Assembly: GCF_900105075.1 (NCBI RefSeq)
Contig: NZ_FNSK01000005.1
Coordinates: forward strand, 1-64,000
Reading direction: 5' to 3'
Source of the DNA: Rhodobacter sp. 24-YEA-8
GTDB lineage: Bacteria > Pseudomonadota > Alphaproteobacteria > Rhodobacterales > Rhodobacteraceae
Length of the DNA: 64,000 bases
Both the position numbers and the translations under genes were made by a program. Each line of letters opens with the position of its first letter. The first letter of the stretch is position 1. Below, piece after piece: positions 3,445-57,420 of this stretch. Under the pieces are notes generated by a model. That model did not search any database and had not been told where the DNA came from. It worked only from the letters and a program-made list of their open reading frames with translations.

Positions 3445-4113
3445 TCAGATCTGAGCGGATTGCGGTTCTGCCGCCCCGATTTCGGCAAGATGCGCCAGAA
3501 GAACCGGCAAAGCGGTGGTCTTCCAGGCCAGCCAGGCCTCTTCCAGTTCTGCCGCGCTGCGGGTCTTTTTCAGGGTCGCCAGACCGCGCAGGAAAATCGC
3601 AAAAGTCCCGTCGAGGAGAAGCAGGATGCGCTTGTCCTGCAAGGCCGCCGCGCCGAAGGCCAGTTCATACATCCGTTTTTGCAAAGCGCGCTGCGAGATC
3701 GCATAGTGATGCATCCGTGTGCCGAGCTCGGGATTGGTGCGCGCGGCCAGCAACAATTCCCCCACCACTTCGAAAATGCGCCCCATGGCGACAAGGCGCA
3801 GCTGCTCCAGTGCGGCATCGGCACGGGCGGGCATATCACGCGGCAGTTCCGCCATGCGCACCTCATATTCCGCGACACTGCGCTGGAACAGGGCATCAAC
3901 CGACGCGGCCAGCAGATCCTCGCGCGTGCCGAAATGATGCAGATGGGCGCCATGGGTCACCCCGGCCCGGGCCGAGATCGCGGCAATGGTGACTTTCTGA
4001 TAGCCGCTTTCCCAAAGCTGCTCGATGGCGGCATCGATCAGCTTTTGCCGGGTCATCAGGCTTCGCAGCTGGGGCGGGCGGGCCTTTTCGATCTTTCGCG
4101 GTGCCATACTCAC
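3445..4113 (-). CDS. TetR/AcrR family transcriptional regulator
   Basis: Protein of 222 aa with an N-terminal TetR helix-turn-helix: LIDAAIEQLWESGYQKVT followed by IAAISARAGVTHGAHLHHFG and TREDLLAA. The ligand-binding half is helical and not recognisable as to effector. It sits just upstream (10 nt) of the thioesterase/BKACE genes' 3' end on the same strand, so it may be the last gene of the 6262-3445 operon and its local repressor. The ligand might be a CoA thioester or beta-keto acid from that pathway; that is inference. Confidence 0.85.
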   Translation of the reverse strand: MSMAPRKIEKARPPQLRSLMTRQKLIDAAIEQLWESGYQKVTIAAISARAGVTHGAHLHHFGTREDLLAASVDALFQRSVAEYEVRMAELPRDMPARADAALEQLRLVAMGRIFEVVGELLLAARTNPELGTRMHHYAISQRALQKRMYELAFGAAALQDKRILLLLDGTFAIFLRGLATLKKTRSAAELEEAWLAWKTTALPVLLAHLAEIGAAEPQSAQI

Positions 4114-4122
4114 TTCCGGGTG

Positions 4123-4503
4123 TCAGGTCAGACAGGATTTTTGTGCCCCTAGCAGGGCTGATGAAACACCTTTGCGCGGATCGACCTGCACCAGAACCGA
4201 CAGACCCGAGGCGACCAGAAGGTCATCTTCGAAGATCTCATGCGACATGTCAAAAGAGCTGTTGCCGATCCGGCTGACCACGGAACGGGTGACAAGGCGG
4301 CGCGCTGCGACCGGCTGGGCGTGAAAATCGACGCGCAAAGAGACCAGGCGCCATTCGACATCCGGGGCCTGCGGAATGCCGGCCAGAAAATCCAGCCGTG
4401 CATCCTCGATCAGCTCTGCCAGTTTCAGACTGTTGACATGGCCCATCGCATCGCGGTCGGCAAAGCGCAGTAACGCCTCGCGGCTATGGCGGGCCGCGGT
4501 CAT
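4123..4503 (-). CDS. Hot-dog fold acyl-CoA thioesterase (CdhB-like)
   Basis: Thioesterase of 126 aa. The segment RFADRDAMGHVNSLKLAELIEDARLDFL has the D-x-x-G-H-V-N pattern of 4-hydroxybenzoyl-CoA thioesterase-like enzymes, with the catalytic acid region in the following helix. The start overlaps the stop of the BKACE gene by 4 nt (ATGA), indicating translational coupling. In carnitine degradation a hot-dog thioesterase (betainyl-CoA thioesterase, CdhB) acts directly after the BKACE enzyme, which fits this pair; the actual substrate is not shown by the sequence. Confidence 0.82.
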   Translation of the reverse strand: MTAARHSREALLRFADRDAMGHVNSLKLAELIEDARLDFLAGIPQAPDVEWRLVSLRVDFHAQPVAARRLVTRSVVSRIGNSSFDMSHEIFEDDLLVASGLSVLVQVDPRKGVSSALLGAQKSCLT

Positions 4504-5429
4504 GCCACCACGCCGATCCGGGGCCGCATATTGAAGGCCTCGCGCACATCCGTCGAACTGGCCAGTTTGATGTTCAGCTTGTCGAGGATCTCGGCGATCA
4601 GATTGACCTGTTCGGCATTGGATTTCGCGAGCTCTCCTTTGCGGATATAGAGCGCATCCTCCAGCCCGACCCGGACACCACCGCCGCGACAGGCCGAGGC
4701 CGTGCCGAAGGCCATCTGCTGACGGCCGGCGGCCAGCACCGACATATAGTAATCATCCCCGAACAACCGCTCGGCTGTTTCGTAGAAATGCTCAAGATGG
4801 CTCGGATGGACGCCGACACCGCCAAGGAAGCCGAAGATGAACTGCACCATCATCGGGCCGCGGATAATGCCCTGATCGCGCAGATATTTCAGGTTGTAGA
4901 GATGCCCGATATCATAGCATTCACATTCAAAGACCACACCCTCGGCTCCGAGTTCAGTCACGATATCTTCCAGCACCTGGAAGGAATTGACCGAATATTT
5001 CGACTTGGATTCAAGCAGGAACTGCTCTTCCCAGTCATATTGCCAGTCTTTTTTCTTGCCCGCCATCAGGTGAAAGCCGAAATTGATCGAGCCCATATTG
5101 AGCGAGACCATATCGGGTGACATCGCACGCGCGGCGGCGAGCCTTTCGTCCATGGTCATGCCGGGTGCGCCGCCGGTGGTGATATTGACGACCGCATCAC
5201 AACGCGCCCGGATCCCCGGCACGAACTGGCCATAAACCGCCGGGTCGGCGGTTGGGCGGCCATCATCCAGACGGGCGTGAAGATGCACGACAGCGGCGCC
5301 TGCGGCATGGGCCTCGACAGCGGAATCCTCAATCTGTTTCGGAGTGATCGGCAGATAGGGCGACATGCTCGGGGTATGAACACCCCCCGTCACCGCGCAG
5401 CTGATGATGGTCTTATTGAACTTGAACAT
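4500..5429 (-). CDS. BKACE family beta-keto acid cleavage enzyme (DUF849)
   Basis: TIM-barrel enzyme of 309 aa that condenses a beta-keto acid with acetyl-CoA, giving acetoacetate and a new CoA ester. Family marks are the N-terminal KTIISCAVTGGVHTPSMSP, the metal-binding VVHLHAR (His-x-His), NITTGGAPGMTMDERL and the late HPSHLEHFYE segment. BKACE members include 3-keto-5-aminohexanoate cleavage enzyme and dehydrocarnitine cleavage enzyme (CdhC). A coupled thioesterase downstream and an SDR upstream favour the second type of pathway (hydroxy acid, keto acid, acyl-CoA, free acid). Substrate remains an inference. Confidence 0.88.
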   Translation of the reverse strand: MFKFNKTIISCAVTGGVHTPSMSPYLPITPKQIEDSAVEAHAAGAAVVHLHARLDDGRPTADPAVYGQFVPGIRARCDAVVNITTGGAPGMTMDERLAAARAMSPDMVSLNMGSINFGFHLMAGKKKDWQYDWEEQFLLESKSKYSVNSFQVLEDIVTELGAEGVVFECECYDIGHLYNLKYLRDQGIIRGPMMVQFIFGFLGGVGVHPSHLEHFYETAERLFGDDYYMSVLAAGRQQMAFGTASACRGGGVRVGLEDALYIRKGELAKSNAEQVNLIAEILDKLNIKLASSTDVREAFNMRPRIGVVA

Positions 5430-51686: not shown

Positions 51687-53354
51687 ATGACCCTGAAAAA
51701 GCCTGTAACCGCCTTCGGCCCAGATTTTCCCTTTGCCTATGATGACTGGCTGACGCATCCGGCCGGGCTTGGAAGCGTGCCGCAGGCGCGCTTTGGTGAA
51801 AAGCTCGCTGTGATCGGGGCAGGGGCTGCGGGCATCATCGCGGGCTATGAACTGATGAAGCTGGGCCTCCATCCCGAAATCTACGAATCCGGCAAATTTG
51901 GCGGCCGGCTGCGCTCTGAGCTGTTCGAGGGCACCGAAGATATCATCGCGGAACTTGGCGGCATGCGCTTTCCGGTTTCGTCGCGCGCCTTCTACCACTA
52001 TGTCGATCTCCTCGGGGTCGAAAGCCGCCCCTTCCCCAATCCGCTGACCGAGGCCGCCGGATCGACGGTGATTGACCTTGAGGGCGAGACGCATTTCGCC
52101 CGCGGCCCCGAGGATCTGCCGCAGCTTTATCACGAAGTCGCCGCTGCCTACCGCGCCGCGCTTGAGGAACATGCCGATTTCGCAGCCCTGACAGAAGCCG
52201 TGCGCGACCGCGATGTGGTCCGGCTCAAGGCGATCTGGGATCCGCTGGTCGCGAAATGGGATGAGCGCACATTCTACGATTTCGTCACCTCGTCCAGCGC
52301 GTTCCAGAGCCTTGGCTTCCGGCATCGTGAGGTCTTTGGCCAGGTTGGGTTTGGCACTGGAGGCTGGGACAGTGACTTTCCGAATTCGATGCTCGAGATC
52401 CTGCGGGTGAACCTGCTCGAACTGGATGACCATCAGCGCTATATCGTCGGCGGGGTCGAAGGGGTGCTGCACCGGCTCTGGCGTCTGCCTGCGCGCGCGG
52501 CGCATTGGCCCGAGGGCACCTCGCTGGCGGATCTGAACGGAGGCGCGACGCTGGGGCGCGCGACGCATATCGCGCGAAGCGGGCAGGGTGGCTTCACCGT
52601 CACCGACCAATGGGGTGTTGCGCGCGATTACAGTGCGGTGCTGGTGACCTGTCAGAGCCATCTTCTGACCACTTCGGTTGCGGTGGATGAGGCGCTTTTC
52701 GATCAGAAACTCTGGATGGCGCTGGACCGCACCCGCTATATGCAGGCCGCGAAAACCTTTGTCATGGTTGACCGGCCGTTCTGGAAAGAAACCGGTCCCG
52801 ACGGGCGGCCGCTACTGTCGATGACCCTGACCGACCGGAACACACGCGGAACCTATTTCTTTGACAACGGGCCCGACAGGCCTGCCGTCATCTGCCTGTC
52901 CTACAGCTGGATGACCGATGCGCTGAAGGTGCTGCCTTACGGGCCGGAAAAGCGGGTCGAACTGGCGCTTGCGGCGCTGGAGCGGATCTATCCCGGCGTT
53001 GATATCTGCAGCCATATCCGCGGCAATCCGATCTGCGTCAGCTGGGAGGCGGATGACAATTTCCTCGGGGCCTTCAAAGGCGCGCTGCCCGGGCATTACC
53101 GCTATAATCTGCGGATGTACCGGCATTTCATGCAGGCCGATATGCCGGCGGATCAGCGCGGCATTTTCCTTGCCGGGGACGGCATCAGCTGGACCCCGGC
53201 CTGGGTCGAGGGGGCGGTCCAGACCGCATTGAACGCAGTCTGGGGCATCATGACCCATTTCGGCGGCAGCTCTGACCGGGCCAATCCCGGTCCTGGAGAT
53301 CTCTGGCCAACTCTCGGCCCCGTCTCGCTCGAGGGGCCGGAGCCGTCAGTCTGA
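51687..53354 (+). CDS. davB: FAD-dependent L-lysine 2-monooxygenase (bacterial L-amino acid monooxygenase)
   Basis: Flavoenzyme of 555 aa that oxidatively decarboxylates an L-amino acid to the amide. It starts with the DavB pattern FGPDFPFAYDDWLTHPAGLG, then the Rossmann loop LAVIGAGAAGIIAGYELMKL, IIAELGGMRFPVSSRAFYHY, REVFGQVGFGTGGWDSDFPN and the C-terminal FLGAFKGALPGHYRYN, with GIFLAGDGISWTPAWVEGAV. From memory this closely follows Pseudomonas DavB along its whole length. Tryptophan 2-monooxygenases are relatives, so substrate is probable, not proven. First two steps of the aminovalerate lysine pathway with davA; no davT/davD in the window. Confidence 0.85.
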   Translation: MTLKKPVTAFGPDFPFAYDDWLTHPAGLGSVPQARFGEKLAVIGAGAAGIIAGYELMKLGLHPEIYESGKFGGRLRSELFEGTEDIIAELGGMRFPVSSRAFYHYVDLLGVESRPFPNPLTEAAGSTVIDLEGETHFARGPEDLPQLYHEVAAAYRAALEEHADFAALTEAVRDRDVVRLKAIWDPLVAKWDERTFYDFVTSSSAFQSLGFRHREVFGQVGFGTGGWDSDFPNSMLEILRVNLLELDDHQRYIVGGVEGVLHRLWRLPARAAHWPEGTSLADLNGGATLGRATHIARSGQGGFTVTDQWGVARDYSAVLVTCQSHLLTTSVAVDEALFDQKLWMALDRTRYMQAAKTFVMVDRPFWKETGPDGRPLLSMTLTDRNTRGTYFFDNGPDRPAVICLSYSWMTDALKVLPYGPEKRVELALAALERIYPGVDICSHIRGNPICVSWEADDNFLGAFKGALPGHYRYNLRMYRHFMQADMPADQRGIFLAGDGISWTPAWVEGAVQTALNAVWGIMTHFGGSSDRANPGPGDLWPTLGPVSLEGPEPSV

Positions 53355-53381
53355 CAGCTGTGCTTTCAAGCGCCACCCGAT

Positions 53382-53404
53382 GGCCGGGGCATAAAACCCC
53401 GGCC
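53382..53404 (+). terminator. Hairpin after davB
   Basis: GGCCGGGG-CATAAAA-CCCCGGCC is an 8-bp perfect stem with a 7-nt loop, 28 nt after the davB stop; no T run follows. The next ~270 bases (53405-53675) show no recognisable gene and mark the start of the decayed region. Confidence 0.5.
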
Positions 53405-53675
53405 TGTGTCTGGTTTGCAAATGCGCCACCATCGCGCGCAAGGGCAGGGCGCGTGACCGACCAAAAGACGCCTTAAGGGGAATTCCGGCAACCGAAGCCG
53501 AAACAGCAACCATTTCCTTGTAGTGTATTGAATTATAATGGGTTTGTCGGTATTTTCCGAGGGCAGGGGTGCAAAGGCCTGCCATCGCGCCCGATCTATG
53601 CGCAAAGACCTCAAATCTGGTCCTGCCGGCGGGCGCGGCTGGGCGCTCCAGGACGTATCGGGTTAAGATGCTATG

Positions 53676-54080
53676 AATGGGTCAGGGTTCTCTCGCAGAT
53701 CGTTGGCCAGCATCTGCAAGGGCCCGTTGCGGAGATGGCCAATTTCCACTGGATGATCAGTCCGCCGAACGTTGCGCCGATCGGGATGTTGCGGCGCTGT
53801 CAGGCACGGCTCATCGGCACGGCGAAGCACACGGCACAGCTGCAGGATCATGGGCTTGCGTCAGATCTGGGGGGCGGGCTCGAAGGATGTGGTCGGCACT
53901 CTCTGGCGGGGCGAGCACCTGACTTCTGAGGCGCAGGCCGGGGATTATGTCGGCGCCCGCATCCTGCTGAACAGCCATCTGCCGCAGCGGGTGACGCGGG
54001 GCTTCATGAGCGACCGCTGCTATGATGCGCTGGCCAGCGGGGCGCTTGTTGTCTCCGACGGGGGAAGCCGGTTTCCATGA
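53676..54080 (+). pseudogene. Glycosyltransferase remnant (CgeB/group 1-like), frameshifted
   Basis: Two reading frames together give parts of a glycosyltransferase: first MANFHWMISPPNVAPIGMLR...LIGTAKHTAQLQDHGL, then after a shift LWRGEHLTSEAQAGDYVGAR, ILLNSHLPQRVTRGFMSDRC and YDALASGALVVSDGG, which resembles the nucleotide-sugar-binding end of CgeB-type enzymes. N-terminus and C-terminal tail are missing. Probably a leftover of a surface polysaccharide cluster. Confidence 0.55.
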
Positions 54081-54188
54081 TCCGGATTGTCCCGCATGAT
54101 CGTGTGGCCTCCCGATACCGTTTTGACAAGGCTGCGGGTGTGGTCCTTGACCGGGCGCGTGCGCTGATCAGCAATTCTTTCATCGCCG

Positions 54189-54400
54189 TTGCGGCCTACG
54201 CTCCGGGGCGATCCGAATGTGCAGTTCGGCCCCGGTACGATCACCATGCCCTGGACCCGGCTCTGGTCGGCAGTGCGGATCGGCAAAAATGTGAATATTG
54301 CTCCGAGGGGTGCGATCATGAATGGCAGCCACCGCCGGGTGATGGCGATCGGCGACGACGCTGGTGTTGATCAGCGCGGCCGTGCCCTGCGCCAGCGCTG
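54189..54400 (+). pseudogene. Possible hexapeptide-repeat acyltransferase remnant
   Basis: A short stretch reads VQFGPGTITMPWTRLWSAVR then IGKNVNIAPRGAIMNGS, which resembles left-handed beta-helix repeats of sugar O-acetyltransferases. The opposite strand also shows a repeat-like phrase (ALINTSVVADRHH), so the coding strand is not certain. It follows the glycosyltransferase remnant, which fits a decayed polysaccharide locus. From 54401 to 54562 I see nothing. Confidence 0.3.
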
Positions 54401-54562
54401 AGTCCAGCCCGGTCGATCCCATTCCCCTGCCAGGATGAAAACGGGGCCAAGCGCACGAAACCTGTCCAGCAAAGGCCTGGCATTGCCCATCAGGAAACGG
54501 GCGCCGCAGTGCGAAGCCGGTCAAGGCTTCATTGCAGAGAGGGCGAAATCGCCCTAGGGGAT

Positions 54563-54988
54563 TTATGACTTACGGTCACGCCACGGAACAAACGGACGAG
54601 AGCCGCCACCGCCAGCTTTGCTGGTGGTATCGTCAGGACGAGATTTGCACGTTAAGCGATCATCTGGACGCTTGAGAACAGCGTCATGACGAATAGACGT
54701 ATTCGATGCAGGCGGCTTCCTCAGGAAGGGGGGAGCCGTGAGGCCAGTCGGTATCACGCCAGAATTGGCCTGAGCGGCCCTCTGACGCGCAGAGGTGGAA
54801 GATCCCCATCTTTTGAGTTGTTCGTCTGTGGCAGCCGAGAGGCACGCATAGCATGGAGCAGCAGCGATCATCGAAGACATGGGCGTGGGGGCGCTCAGCG
54901 GCGCTCCACGCGGCGCGCTTGCGGGCGTTGCCGACCGGGCATTCATAGTCGGGGTTTTCTGGGTTTTCCGTTTCGTCGATTTTGCCAT
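54563..54988 (-). CDS. Basic protein overlapping the phage VP4-like gene in another frame
   Basis: Open frame of 141 codons from ATG 54988, out of frame with and overlapping the last third of the VP4-like gene. The N-terminus is very basic (MAKSTKRKTQKTPTMNARS), like the small DNA-binding proteins (J/VP5-type) of Microviridae, which often overlap the replication gene. The second half contains TDEQLKRWGSSTSARQRAAQ and ends GSRPFVPWRDRKS. No family is certain; it could be a fortuitous frame. Confidence 0.45.
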   Translation of the reverse strand: MAKSTKRKTQKTPTMNARSATPASAPRGAPLSAPTPMSSMIAAAPCYACLSAATDEQLKRWGSSTSARQRAAQANSGVIPTGLTAPPFLRKPPASNTSIRHDAVLKRPDDRLTCKSRPDDTTSKAGGGGSRPFVPWRDRKS

Positions 54989-56033
54989 GGAGAATGTCCA
55001 AATCTGGTTGGTTATCTTCGCAGCTGCGAAGGAGAGAGGACCACTGGGCAGCATCGCAGCCAGTCGCCCAACGGGCGCGGGTGTTGAGAGCGAGAAGGCA
55101 CCAAAGGACTTTCTTCCGCCAAAGGCCGGAGGGGTGCCAATAGCCCTTCAGACCCGGGATCCTGATATTGAGAGAGGGAAGCACCGAGCCGGAGGCTTCG
55201 AGAGCTTCGAATTTGCGCATGAGGAAGTTTTCCCCGATCCCGGGCCGTTTGCTCATGCGGAAGAGACCAGTAGCGAAGTTTTCTGACTTGCTTTCCCGCA
55301 TAGTCCCTTCGGACTTTTCAGCGGTGAACTGGTCTTTATTTACATACGAGAGCACATAGGACGCCCCGCCCTGCTCTACCTCGTGGAGGCAGGAGAACCC
55401 GGCAGGCCAGAGTGACCAGTTGAGGCGGATTTTTCGACCGCCGAAGACAGTGAGCATGTCTTTACGGTCAGTGACGATCTGGCGCTTTCCGTCGCGGAGA
55501 GCTTGAAATTCGCCGATCTTGAGGACGTCAAAGTTTGTGTAGAGGATGCAATGCCAATGGCAACGCCCCTCTTGGTCGCCTTGTTCGCCAGCGACAAGGA
55601 AGTGGACATAAGGAACGATGTTGAGCTTGTGGCGCTTGGCATAGCGCCGAGCAGCAGACCGCAGCCGGTCAACGAACATCTTGACGTCATAGTAACAGAA
55701 CATCTGGGCCGCATCGCGGCCTTCCTGCGTATCTTCGGAATAGGTCAGGTCGACCCATAGGGTACGCTTGGCCCACGCATCCGCAAGGATCATACCTGCG
55801 TCAGCGATAGCATTGCCCATGTAGTTAGGGTCAGCGCCACTGGGGGCAACAGTGCCACAGGTAGCGCCAAGGACGGTCAGGGGATTGAACCCAAAGCGTT
55901 CACCAGCCTCGCGGGCAGTGCCGACTTGGTCCAAGATCACGTGGCGCGTGTAGCGCCCCGGATTGGCTTTCATGCCCATCATGCCGCCAAGAAGGCCAAA
56001 GCCGCCTTGTACGAGTGCAGCCCCAATGGACAT
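54684..56033 (-). CDS. Microviridae chimera: pilot protein VP2 N-terminus fused to replication initiator VP4
   Basis: A 449-codon frame. Residues 1-~90 look like the microvirus DNA pilot protein: SIGAALVQGGFGLLGGMMGM (glycine-rich helix), FGFNPLTVLGATCG and YMGNAIADAGMILADAWAKR. From ~residue 91 the frame is the ssDNA-phage replication initiator: LWVDLTYSEDT, HFLVAGEQGDQEGRCHWHCI (HUH metal site HWH), YVLSYVNKDQ (catalytic Tyr/Lys region) and LFRMSKRPGIGENF. The Cys-rich N-terminal ~60-70 residues of VP4 and the rest of VP2 are missing, as after an in-frame deletion across these neighbouring genes. No major capsid gene is present, so the element is defective. Confidence 0.72.
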   Translation of the reverse strand: MSIGAALVQGGFGLLGGMMGMKANPGRYTRHVILDQVGTAREAGERFGFNPLTVLGATCGTVAPSGADPNYMGNAIADAGMILADAWAKRTLWVDLTYSEDTQEGRDAAQMFCYYDVKMFVDRLRSAARRYAKRHKLNIVPYVHFLVAGEQGDQEGRCHWHCILYTNFDVLKIGEFQALRDGKRQIVTDRKDMLTVFGGRKIRLNWSLWPAGFSCLHEVEQGGASYVLSYVNKDQFTAEKSEGTMRESKSENFATGLFRMSKRPGIGENFLMRKFEALEASGSVLPSLNIRIPGLKGYWHPSGLWRKKVLWCLLALNTRARWATGCDAAQWSSLLRSCEDNQPDLDILHGKIDETENPENPDYECPVGNARKRAAWSAAERPHAHVFDDRCCSMLCVPLGCHRRTTQKMGIFHLCASEGRSGQFWRDTDWPHGSPLPEEAACIEYVYSS

Positions 56034-56275
56034 CAGGAAACCTGCGCCATCTTGATCAGATCGGCGCGGACCTTCCGGGGTTCGACCCAGAAGTTATCAG
56101 CGACAAGCTGAATGGCCCAAGGCATGGGCGTTTTCTGATAGTCGATACCGGTCTCACGCTGGTATTAGAACAGACGCCAGAGCGCGTCCCGATAGGACGA
56201 GACAGGCTCTTGAAGCTCCGAGAGGACTTGGAGGCGGGCGGGAAGAGCGCCCGCTATAGCGGGAACCTGTCGCAT
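56033..56275 (-). pseudogene. Small phage-like gene with an in-frame stop, upstream of the VP2/VP4 fusion
   Basis: From ATG 56275 the frame reads MRQVPAIAGALPARLQVLSE...YRDALWRLF, hits TAA at 56165-56167, and continues in the same frame YQRETGIDYQKTPMPWAIQL...VRADLIKMAQVS until a TGA that overlaps the VP2 ATG (TGATG). Coding-like text on both sides of the stop and the coupled junction suggest a real gene inactivated by a nonsense change. Family not recognised; its place fits a small microvirus structural protein. Confidence 0.45.
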
Positions 56276-56304
56276 CACAGAGCCCCCGCGCAGAAGGCCT
56301 GAAA

Positions 56305-56397
56305 CTACGCCGGGAAGAGGGTCGAGACCGTCCCGCCGAGGAAGCCAAGCACCAGAGGCACGATTGCCGCGAGCGCTTTGCTAAGTGGTTGTTTTAC
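56305..56397 (-). other. Possible tiny hydrophobic protein, start unclear
   Basis: About 30 codons read KQPLSKALAAIVPLVLGFLG then GTVSTLFPA and a stop; this is a single membrane helix with a basic front, as in small lysis or coat-like phage proteins. AGGAG lies just upstream (56406-56410, minus strand), but no in-frame ATG/GTG/TTG sits at the right distance, so it may be broken or chance. Confidence 0.3.
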
Positions 56398-56426
56398 ACG
56401 TGTTTCTCCTGTTAAGGCGAAGAAAT

Positions 56427-56451
56427 ATCCGATAATGCAAGATTATTGGAT
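56427..56451. repeat. dif-like imperfect palindrome at the edge of the phage remnant
   Basis: ATCCGATAAT-GCAAG-ATTATTGGAT: 10-bp arms with one mismatch around a 5-bp centre, AT-rich in GC-rich surroundings, just upstream of the phage genes. The CGATAA...TTAT layout is reminiscent of XerC/XerD half sites used by integrating microviruses. No second copy was found on the other side. It could equally be a promoter operator. Confidence 0.3.
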
Positions 56452-56530
56452 GTTATACTATGATGACAGATGCGGCGGATAAAGTTGACATATATAGGAT
56501 AAAACGCCGAAAATATGCTAATGTTTCGAC

Positions 56531-57420
56531 ATGGCCTGTGCCCCGAAACCCCCTCAGCTCGTCCGAAGCCCTCCGCCGCTGCCGAGTTGGATCCGGCAAG
56601 CAGTGGGTGGTGATGATATTGAGACAGCGATGTTTTCCGCCGGCGCAGCGCTCGCCGTTCTGGACCCGGTCGGCATCCTGTTGCGCAAGCGCCGGCGCTG
56701 TCGAGCGCAGCGACGACTTCGCGTTTGGAAGGGCGCCGGGAAGTCGAAGCGCAACTCCGAGATACCCTCGCGCTGCGCAAACCCGGCGATGATCCTGGTC
56801 CCGCCGGACGGATGCTCGTCGGTTGGCGCGCCCTTGGCGAGGCGCGGGCGCTGAGATCTTCCGACTGGCCCGCGCGACTGCCCGCCTTCTTCGATCTTGT
56901 GCCTGAACCGAGCGCTGAGATCTTAGGCGATCTCGGCACGGGCTTTGTCGGCCGCACCCCGCCTCTGCGCTCGGCCGCAGAGGCGGGGTGCACGGTTCTC
57001 GCTCTCGGTCCAACCATCGCGGTTTCGCGCTTTGGCTGACTGACGCGCTTCTGGCCCGCGCATTCGGCTGGGATCGGCCGGTGCCGCTGCTTGCAGTCCA
57101 TCCGCCGCGGGCGGCTTTCTGGCTGGAGGGCGAAGCATGGCTGACGGCCTGTGCTGCGGTTTGGGGCCGGGCGGCGGTTGCCGCCTTTGATCGTCACGTC
57201 GATCTGACCCGCCGCGCTGCTCTGCGCGCGGTAAATCTGCGGCGGCCCGGAAAGGATGCTGCCACCATCGTCGCTATGCTGCTGACGGAGGACGCGCTGG
57301 CAGCACAGGCGGGGGCCGAGGCCAGCGATCGCGCCGCGCGATGGCTCTTCGACCGACTGACATCACTCGGCCTGGTGCGTGAGCTGACCGGACGACCGAC
57401 CTTTCGGCTTTACGGGTTGT
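56531..57420 (+). pseudogene. DUF1403 family gene, two frameshifts
   Basis: Three frames in succession spell one DUF1403 protein. First PPLPSWIRQAVGGDDIETAM and FSAGAALAVLDPV; next SRLEGRREVEAQLRDTLALR, KPGDDPGPAGRMLVGWRALG and EARALRSSDWPARLPAF; then LWLTDALLARAFGWDRPVPL, LTEDALAAQAGAEASDRAAR and LGLVRELTGRPTFRLYGL. Shifts fall near 56670 and 57015. DUF1403 genes occur next to scpB on alphaproteobacterial plasmids, as here. Function of the family unknown. Confidence 0.75.

Follow-up and report, generated by a model that had tools for sequence, protein, structure and literature searches.

The window analysed in the present study, a stretch of 64,000 nucleotides from Rhodobacter sp. 24-YEA-8, contains a frame of 449 codons on the minus strand (54684..56033) that begins as one microvirus protein and continues as another without an internal stop; the plus strand of this span contains 7 stops. 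This locus raises the question of how such a hybrid came into being and whether it is kept for a function. We consider it very probable that the frame belongs to an inherited, decaying microvirus remnant, that its two parts were joined in frame by chance, and that the hybrid is most probably without a selected function.

Composition of the hybrid frame

Regarding the two halves of the frame, which the first-pass annotation had read as an in-frame fusion of VP2 and VP4, the proposal was confirmed by matches to both proteins in Rhodobacter phage Ebor (PP754850) and in a provirus of Rhodovulum sulfidophilum. Residues 6-90 matched the VP2 of the R. sulfidophilum provirus (45%, E 6e-14) and residues 14-85 that of Ebor (42%, E 9e-9); the homology to the VP2 of this group was confined to the N-terminal ~90 residues. 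Residues 82-358 matched the VP4 of Ebor (50%, E 8e-88), and residues 91-357 that of the R. sulfidophilum provirus (56%, E 4e-94). The frame is thereby divided approximately into the start of VP2, the DNA pilot protein (residues 1 to ~90; 55764..56033, minus strand, also by a nucleotide match to the VP2 region of the provirus of strain IB05 described below), and microvirus VP4 (residues 91 to ~385). VP4, the HUH replication initiator, is present from its first HUH strand onwards (54684..55763, minus strand) and lacks its first ~42 residues, as assigned by homology, the comparison with IB05 and a structure model. A normal single-domain replication protein was ruled out because the full-length relatives have two separate genes.

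The replication-initiator motifs singled out in the first reading were present in the frame, namely GRCHWH at residues 156-161 and SYVLSYVNKDQF at residues 225-236, and H159, H161, Y226, Y230 and K233 were unchanged in both fused copies, that of the window and that of the environmental protein P0001. Profile searches bore out the VP4 half and not the VP2 half: Pfam PF23343 matched residues 92-234 with 38.9 bits, above its curated cut-off of 27.8, and PHROG 942, 'replication initiation protein', matched residues 89-285 (E 1.5e-18), and two VP2s of the Ebor-like group scanned against Pfam and PHROG matched no model, so that the identity of the VP2 part rests on pairwise matches and gene position. 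In the structure prediction, the HUH core was confidently modelled from residue ~90 onward, which is right at the joint, and a fold search of the PDB returned nothing at E <= 0.001.

The aligned unfused relatives possess a VP4 N-terminus of ~42 residues with a cysteine-rich motif, which is lost in the hybrid, and this loss is expected to damage VP4. A simple loss of the VP4 C-terminus was rejected at the other end: the tail is that of the relative with a short out-of-frame stretch, the frame of IB05 being left at residues ~394-411 and then regained.

Origin of the joint

The best comparator was the provirus of 'Paracoccus sp. IB05' (NZ_JAEFCF010000005.1), a strain that the genome set assigns to the genus of the window. 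Its contig of 190,393 bases is probably circular because its ends overlap by 55 bases, and its provirus is the complete copy for which relatives had been searched, with open genes, VP2 and VP4 separate and, unlike the window, a dif-type site of the shared type at each end. Window positions 54673-55763 correspond to IB05 3852-4942, over VP4, and positions 55762-55849 to IB05 1-88, in both cases with 93% nucleotide identity, against 79% over the left end. At the joint (55762..55764, minus strand), which was located by this comparison and where AC is common to the VP2 and VP4 of IB05, ~3,765 bases (~3.77 kb), a multiple of three, are absent relative to IB05. The missing span begins at codon ~90 of VP2, ends at codon ~43 of VP4 and includes VP1, gp5, gp6 and gp7. 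The suggestion that the fusion was made by a deletion was therefore upheld, with two common bases at the joint.

The accompanying assumption that VP2 and VP4 are neighbours in these phages fails for this group, in which the genes are ordered gp1-gp2-VP2-VP1-gp5-gp6-gp7-(gp8)-VP4-gp10. VP1 intervened between VP2 and VP4 in 24 of the 25 non-window rows compared (22 of 23 distinct loci), where two rows are second copies of a locus and four are contigs that start at VP4 and were taken as circular; gp5, gp6 and gp7 were detected in many of the 25 rows, not in all. The order in the window, gp1-gp2-VP2-[gap]-VP4-gp10, is the Ebor order minus its middle. A small deletion between an adjacent VP2 and VP4 was thus rejected by the gene order across the 25 rows, and the deletion therefore took out the capsid block. 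Mechanistically, one deletion between two copies of the 2-base repeat would have removed this block, and both break points would have fallen in the same frame by chance (1 in 3). Since they did so, the 449-codon hybrid frame is opened by the VP2 start, and the hybrid would be started from the signals of VP2.

No VP4 was seen in the 25th row, that of Rhodovulum MB263. This strain was considered for the same fusion on account of a tblastn row that extended over both halves, and the idea was rejected: its VP2 is full-length and ordinary and matches another VP2 nearly end to end, and the match beyond residue ~90 was taken as spurious. The plasmid concerned (pRSMBA of Rhodovulum sp. MB263, locus L006, 7545-10078) carries a truncated copy with gp1, gp2, VP2 and a broken VP1, with no VP4 in the stretch examined. 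In the plasmid provirus of R. sulfidophilum (locus L004, 3474-9113), genes bear apparent misannotations, for example 'patched family protein' and 'MATE efflux family protein'.

The same fusion was encountered in P0001, an environmental protein of 426 aa from a contig of 7,761 bases, known here from the protein alone. Its joint is identical to that of the window, and the two proteins are 97% identical over residues 1-412. The database search gave 284 hits, of which 120 were listed. P0001 was one of these 120, those listed after it covering at most 79% of the query, and no third fused copy was found among them or in 394 genomes of the family. The identical joint means that the deletion was inherited or has spread, and is therefore old enough for two lineages. 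Both copies go out of frame near residue 394; only the window regains the frame of the relative, and the tail of P0001 ends in a different frame.

The remnant and its replicon

The first reading had also placed the frame in an integrated microvirus remnant, and this was borne out by homologues of gp1, gp2, VP2, VP4 and gp10 on the same strand, with a dif-type site at the left. Judged from these likenesses, the element is what is left of a provirus akin to phage Ebor, and its VP4 homology (50% to Ebor, 56% to the R. sulfidophilum provirus and 93% of nucleotides to IB05) makes it Tainavirinae-like by VP4. The authors who described Ebor assign this phage to the proposed 'Tainavirinae', report dif motifs on either side of its integration site and detected the g10 product in virions (PMC11980548). 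The remnant has in common with Ebor the VP2 start, the VP4 core, the gp10 end, a dif-type attachment site and the left-end order gp1-gp2-VP2. Unlike Ebor, a complete, plaque-forming temperate phage, it is without VP1, gp5-gp7, most of VP2, the VP4 start and any counterpart of gp8 that we could find. Neither the provirus region nor the window as a whole gave a significant match to VP1, and the genome gave none in a search run without a positive control; the element is therefore a remnant and no virus. The genome of the window contained a single VP4 match, and no second or helper copy was found in it, the VP1 part of this search being again that without a positive control.

Other lesions surround the hybrid. 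The gp2 homologue (56032..56260, minus strand) has an in-frame stop and a diverged 5' part, and the gp1 homologue (56275..56398, minus strand) an altered start and an in-frame stop, the limits of both being approximate and set by eye. At the opposite end, an overlapping gp10-like ORF of 163 aa (54563..55054, minus strand) matched Ebor gp10 at its C-terminal end (65% over 29 aa, E 4e-8). The lesions in gp1, gp2, the VP4 tail and the right end suggest that decay would have continued beside the deletion. Two further cut-down Ebor-like copies occur in IB05 (locus L065, 8062-8317, and locus L019, 14146-14902). One cut-down copy lies at the flank orthologous to that of the window and consists only of the VP2 start and gp2 before the contig ends, and the third IB05 copy is interrupted within VP2 by other DNA, which is transposase-like as labelled from reading the sequence. 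The decay of such proviruses is therefore not unique to the window.

The left attachment site, a palindromic dif-type site at 56424..56454, was identified by pattern search and comparison. No right attachment site came to light in the window: searching with a half-site pattern and allowing up to three mismatches recovered the left site only; by comparison with IB05, the provirus meets the host flank in the interval 54498..54562. An Ebor-like microvirus would thus have inserted itself into a plasmid-like replicon at a dif-type site, and the nature of the site suggests that the host XerC/XerD carried this out. The contig of 246,222 bases is probably a plasmid, and the host is taken as Pseudogemmobacter-like. 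Elsewhere in this genome, contigs C7 and C3 carry similar dif-type sites. On the replicons of several congeners, homology to the window starts at or near its left dif-type site and runs into a DUF1403-family gene, which in the window adjoins dif and, by homology, is split over three frames (56531..57419, plus strand). DUF1403 may therefore mark dif on these replicons.

On the other side of the remnant, a colinear comparison showed that the host flank (53000..54497) is without six stretches present in two congeners (G012:C4 and G010:C43, mutually 93.8% identical over 7.8 kb). The missing stretches measure 95-2,684 bases with overlaps of 5-25 bases at the joints, and such short overlaps can arise by chance extension; a local hot spot of short-repeat deletions is possible.

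Microvirus prophages had been called rare, but in this genus such proviruses are not especially so: VP4 matches were found in 4 of its 13 genomes, that of the window included, and a fifth has a VP2 fragment at a contig end. In the family-wide sample, 8 of 394 genomes had any match, again including that of the window, and a single frame extending over both halves was seen in the window alone. Microviridae prophages are described from other Rhodobacteraceae (PMC8224337), and microvirus proviruses at dif sites are known (PMC3091885), including in Rhodobacter (PMC11980548). The proviruses of Bacteroidetes lie at dif-like sites, which is attributed to XerC/D (Krupovic and Forterre 2011, PMC3091885). 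They form another group, in which the pilot gene is transcriptionally downstream of the capsid gene, unlike the group of the window, and the text of that article uses neither the word 'fusion' nor the word 'remnant'. A limited search of the open-licence literature found no paper on a fusion of pilot protein and replication initiator in microviruses. The remnant is a further, broken case of a known kind of provirus, and the fusion is a curiosity with a minor chance of function.

Selection on the hybrid and alternative explanations

The dN/dS between the window and IB05 over residues 91-385 was 0.12 (23.5 synonymous and 10.5 nonsynonymous), a value that mixes the time before and after the deletion, and much of this path may predate it; the VP2 part (88 codons) gave 0.22, and a value of 0.43 was obtained for the last 38 codons. 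Between the window and P0001, there were nine differences in residues 91-384, eight of which changed in P0001 and one in the window with IB05 as the outgroup. Seven of the nine lay in columns that had sufficient sequences for scoring; the other two were dropped for lack of letters. These seven had a mean column conservation of 0.842 against 0.713 at random sites (92% of random draws were at or below 0.842), whereas the 46 differences between P0002 and IB05, which are unfused, had a mean of 0.564, below every random draw, and none of 20,000 draws of seven from these 46 reached 0.842. This contrast rests on a small number (n=7), P0002 is among the sequences that define conservation, a small bias towards it, and eight of the nine changes are on the side of P0001, in which assembly or sequencing errors would look alike; read in this way, changes at conserved VP4 positions after the split would be the pattern of an unconstrained frame, arguing against retained function. 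The seven changes that both fused copies have in common relative to IB05 look constrained, as in functional evolution (mean conservation 0.55); most of them may predate the joint and part may postdate it.

An improbable alternative is that the hybrid is a reused protein in which the VP2 N-terminus replaces the cysteine-rich N-terminus of VP4 and the HUH domain serves the plasmid in nicking, dimer handling or the blocking of superinfecting microviruses. The modelled start of the HUH core at the joint would suit such a swap, and the HUH and tyrosine motifs are intact in both the window and P0001 with its identical joint. Moreover, the ~125 codons of gp1 and gp2 contain two stops and the 449-codon hybrid none, for which the chance is ~5% if stops are random (n = 2), and P0001 has no stop in 426 codons, leaving the frame open in two lineages. 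Against this, the changes after the split do not avoid conserved columns, the tails of the two fused copies end in different frames, the VP4 N-terminus of the unfused relatives is lost, decay is seen all around, and no third fused copy was met in the hits and genomes covered. Reuse of the HUH protein by the plasmid, as raised in the first-pass annotation, was accordingly unsupported, with gp1 and gp2 broken, the right attachment site not found and conserved VP4 positions not spared. The more specific form, a retained pilot-Rep hybrid in which the hydrophobic N-terminus of VP2 was swapped in at the HUH start to give a membrane-directed HUH nuclease, inherited at least into the P0001 lineage as a plasmid or anti-microvirus factor, is equally improbable. 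In the preferred reading of a decaying remnant, the deletion would be fairly recent in mutational terms, and the 449-codon frame would for this reason still be open.

Likewise improbable is a defective mini-provirus that is still mobile, having kept a dif-type site and Rep, lost its capsid genes and come to be packaged by a complete relative. One dif-type site, the Rep core and gp10 are indeed retained, complete relatives exist within the same genus, and no link was seen between the P0001 contig and the flank of the window when the neighbouring amine oxidase was used to look for that contig: of 3,610 clusters, the 120 listed included none with a longest contig of 7,761, although clusters hide members. 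However, the window gave no right attachment site, both gp1 and gp2 are broken, and the genome yielded no VP1 in the search mentioned above. An assembly artefact joining two provirus copies is scarcely credible: the congener IB05 has several copies, which can confuse assembly, but in the genome of the window VP4 was matched only once and VP1 not at all, and the same joint in the separate environmental sequence of P0001 speaks against such an error and nearly refutes it.

The remnant exemplifies the erosion of tiny dif-integrated ssDNA phages on plasmid-like replicons, which leaves long chimeric frames that annotation may take for new genes. If the hybrid were functional, it would represent unusual domain swapping in microviruses, and the joint common to P0001 makes its function testable. 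The results also extend the range of Ebor-like phages to Pseudogemmobacter replicons, whose dif-type sites harbour both complete and broken copies. In P. humi (locus L020, G005:C136, 1550-5598 and 6908-12413), a very divergent second microvirus lies back to back beside the Ebor-like provirus of the same contig, on the minus strand, with VP4-like and VP1-like identities of 26-29% and 21-27%, respectively.
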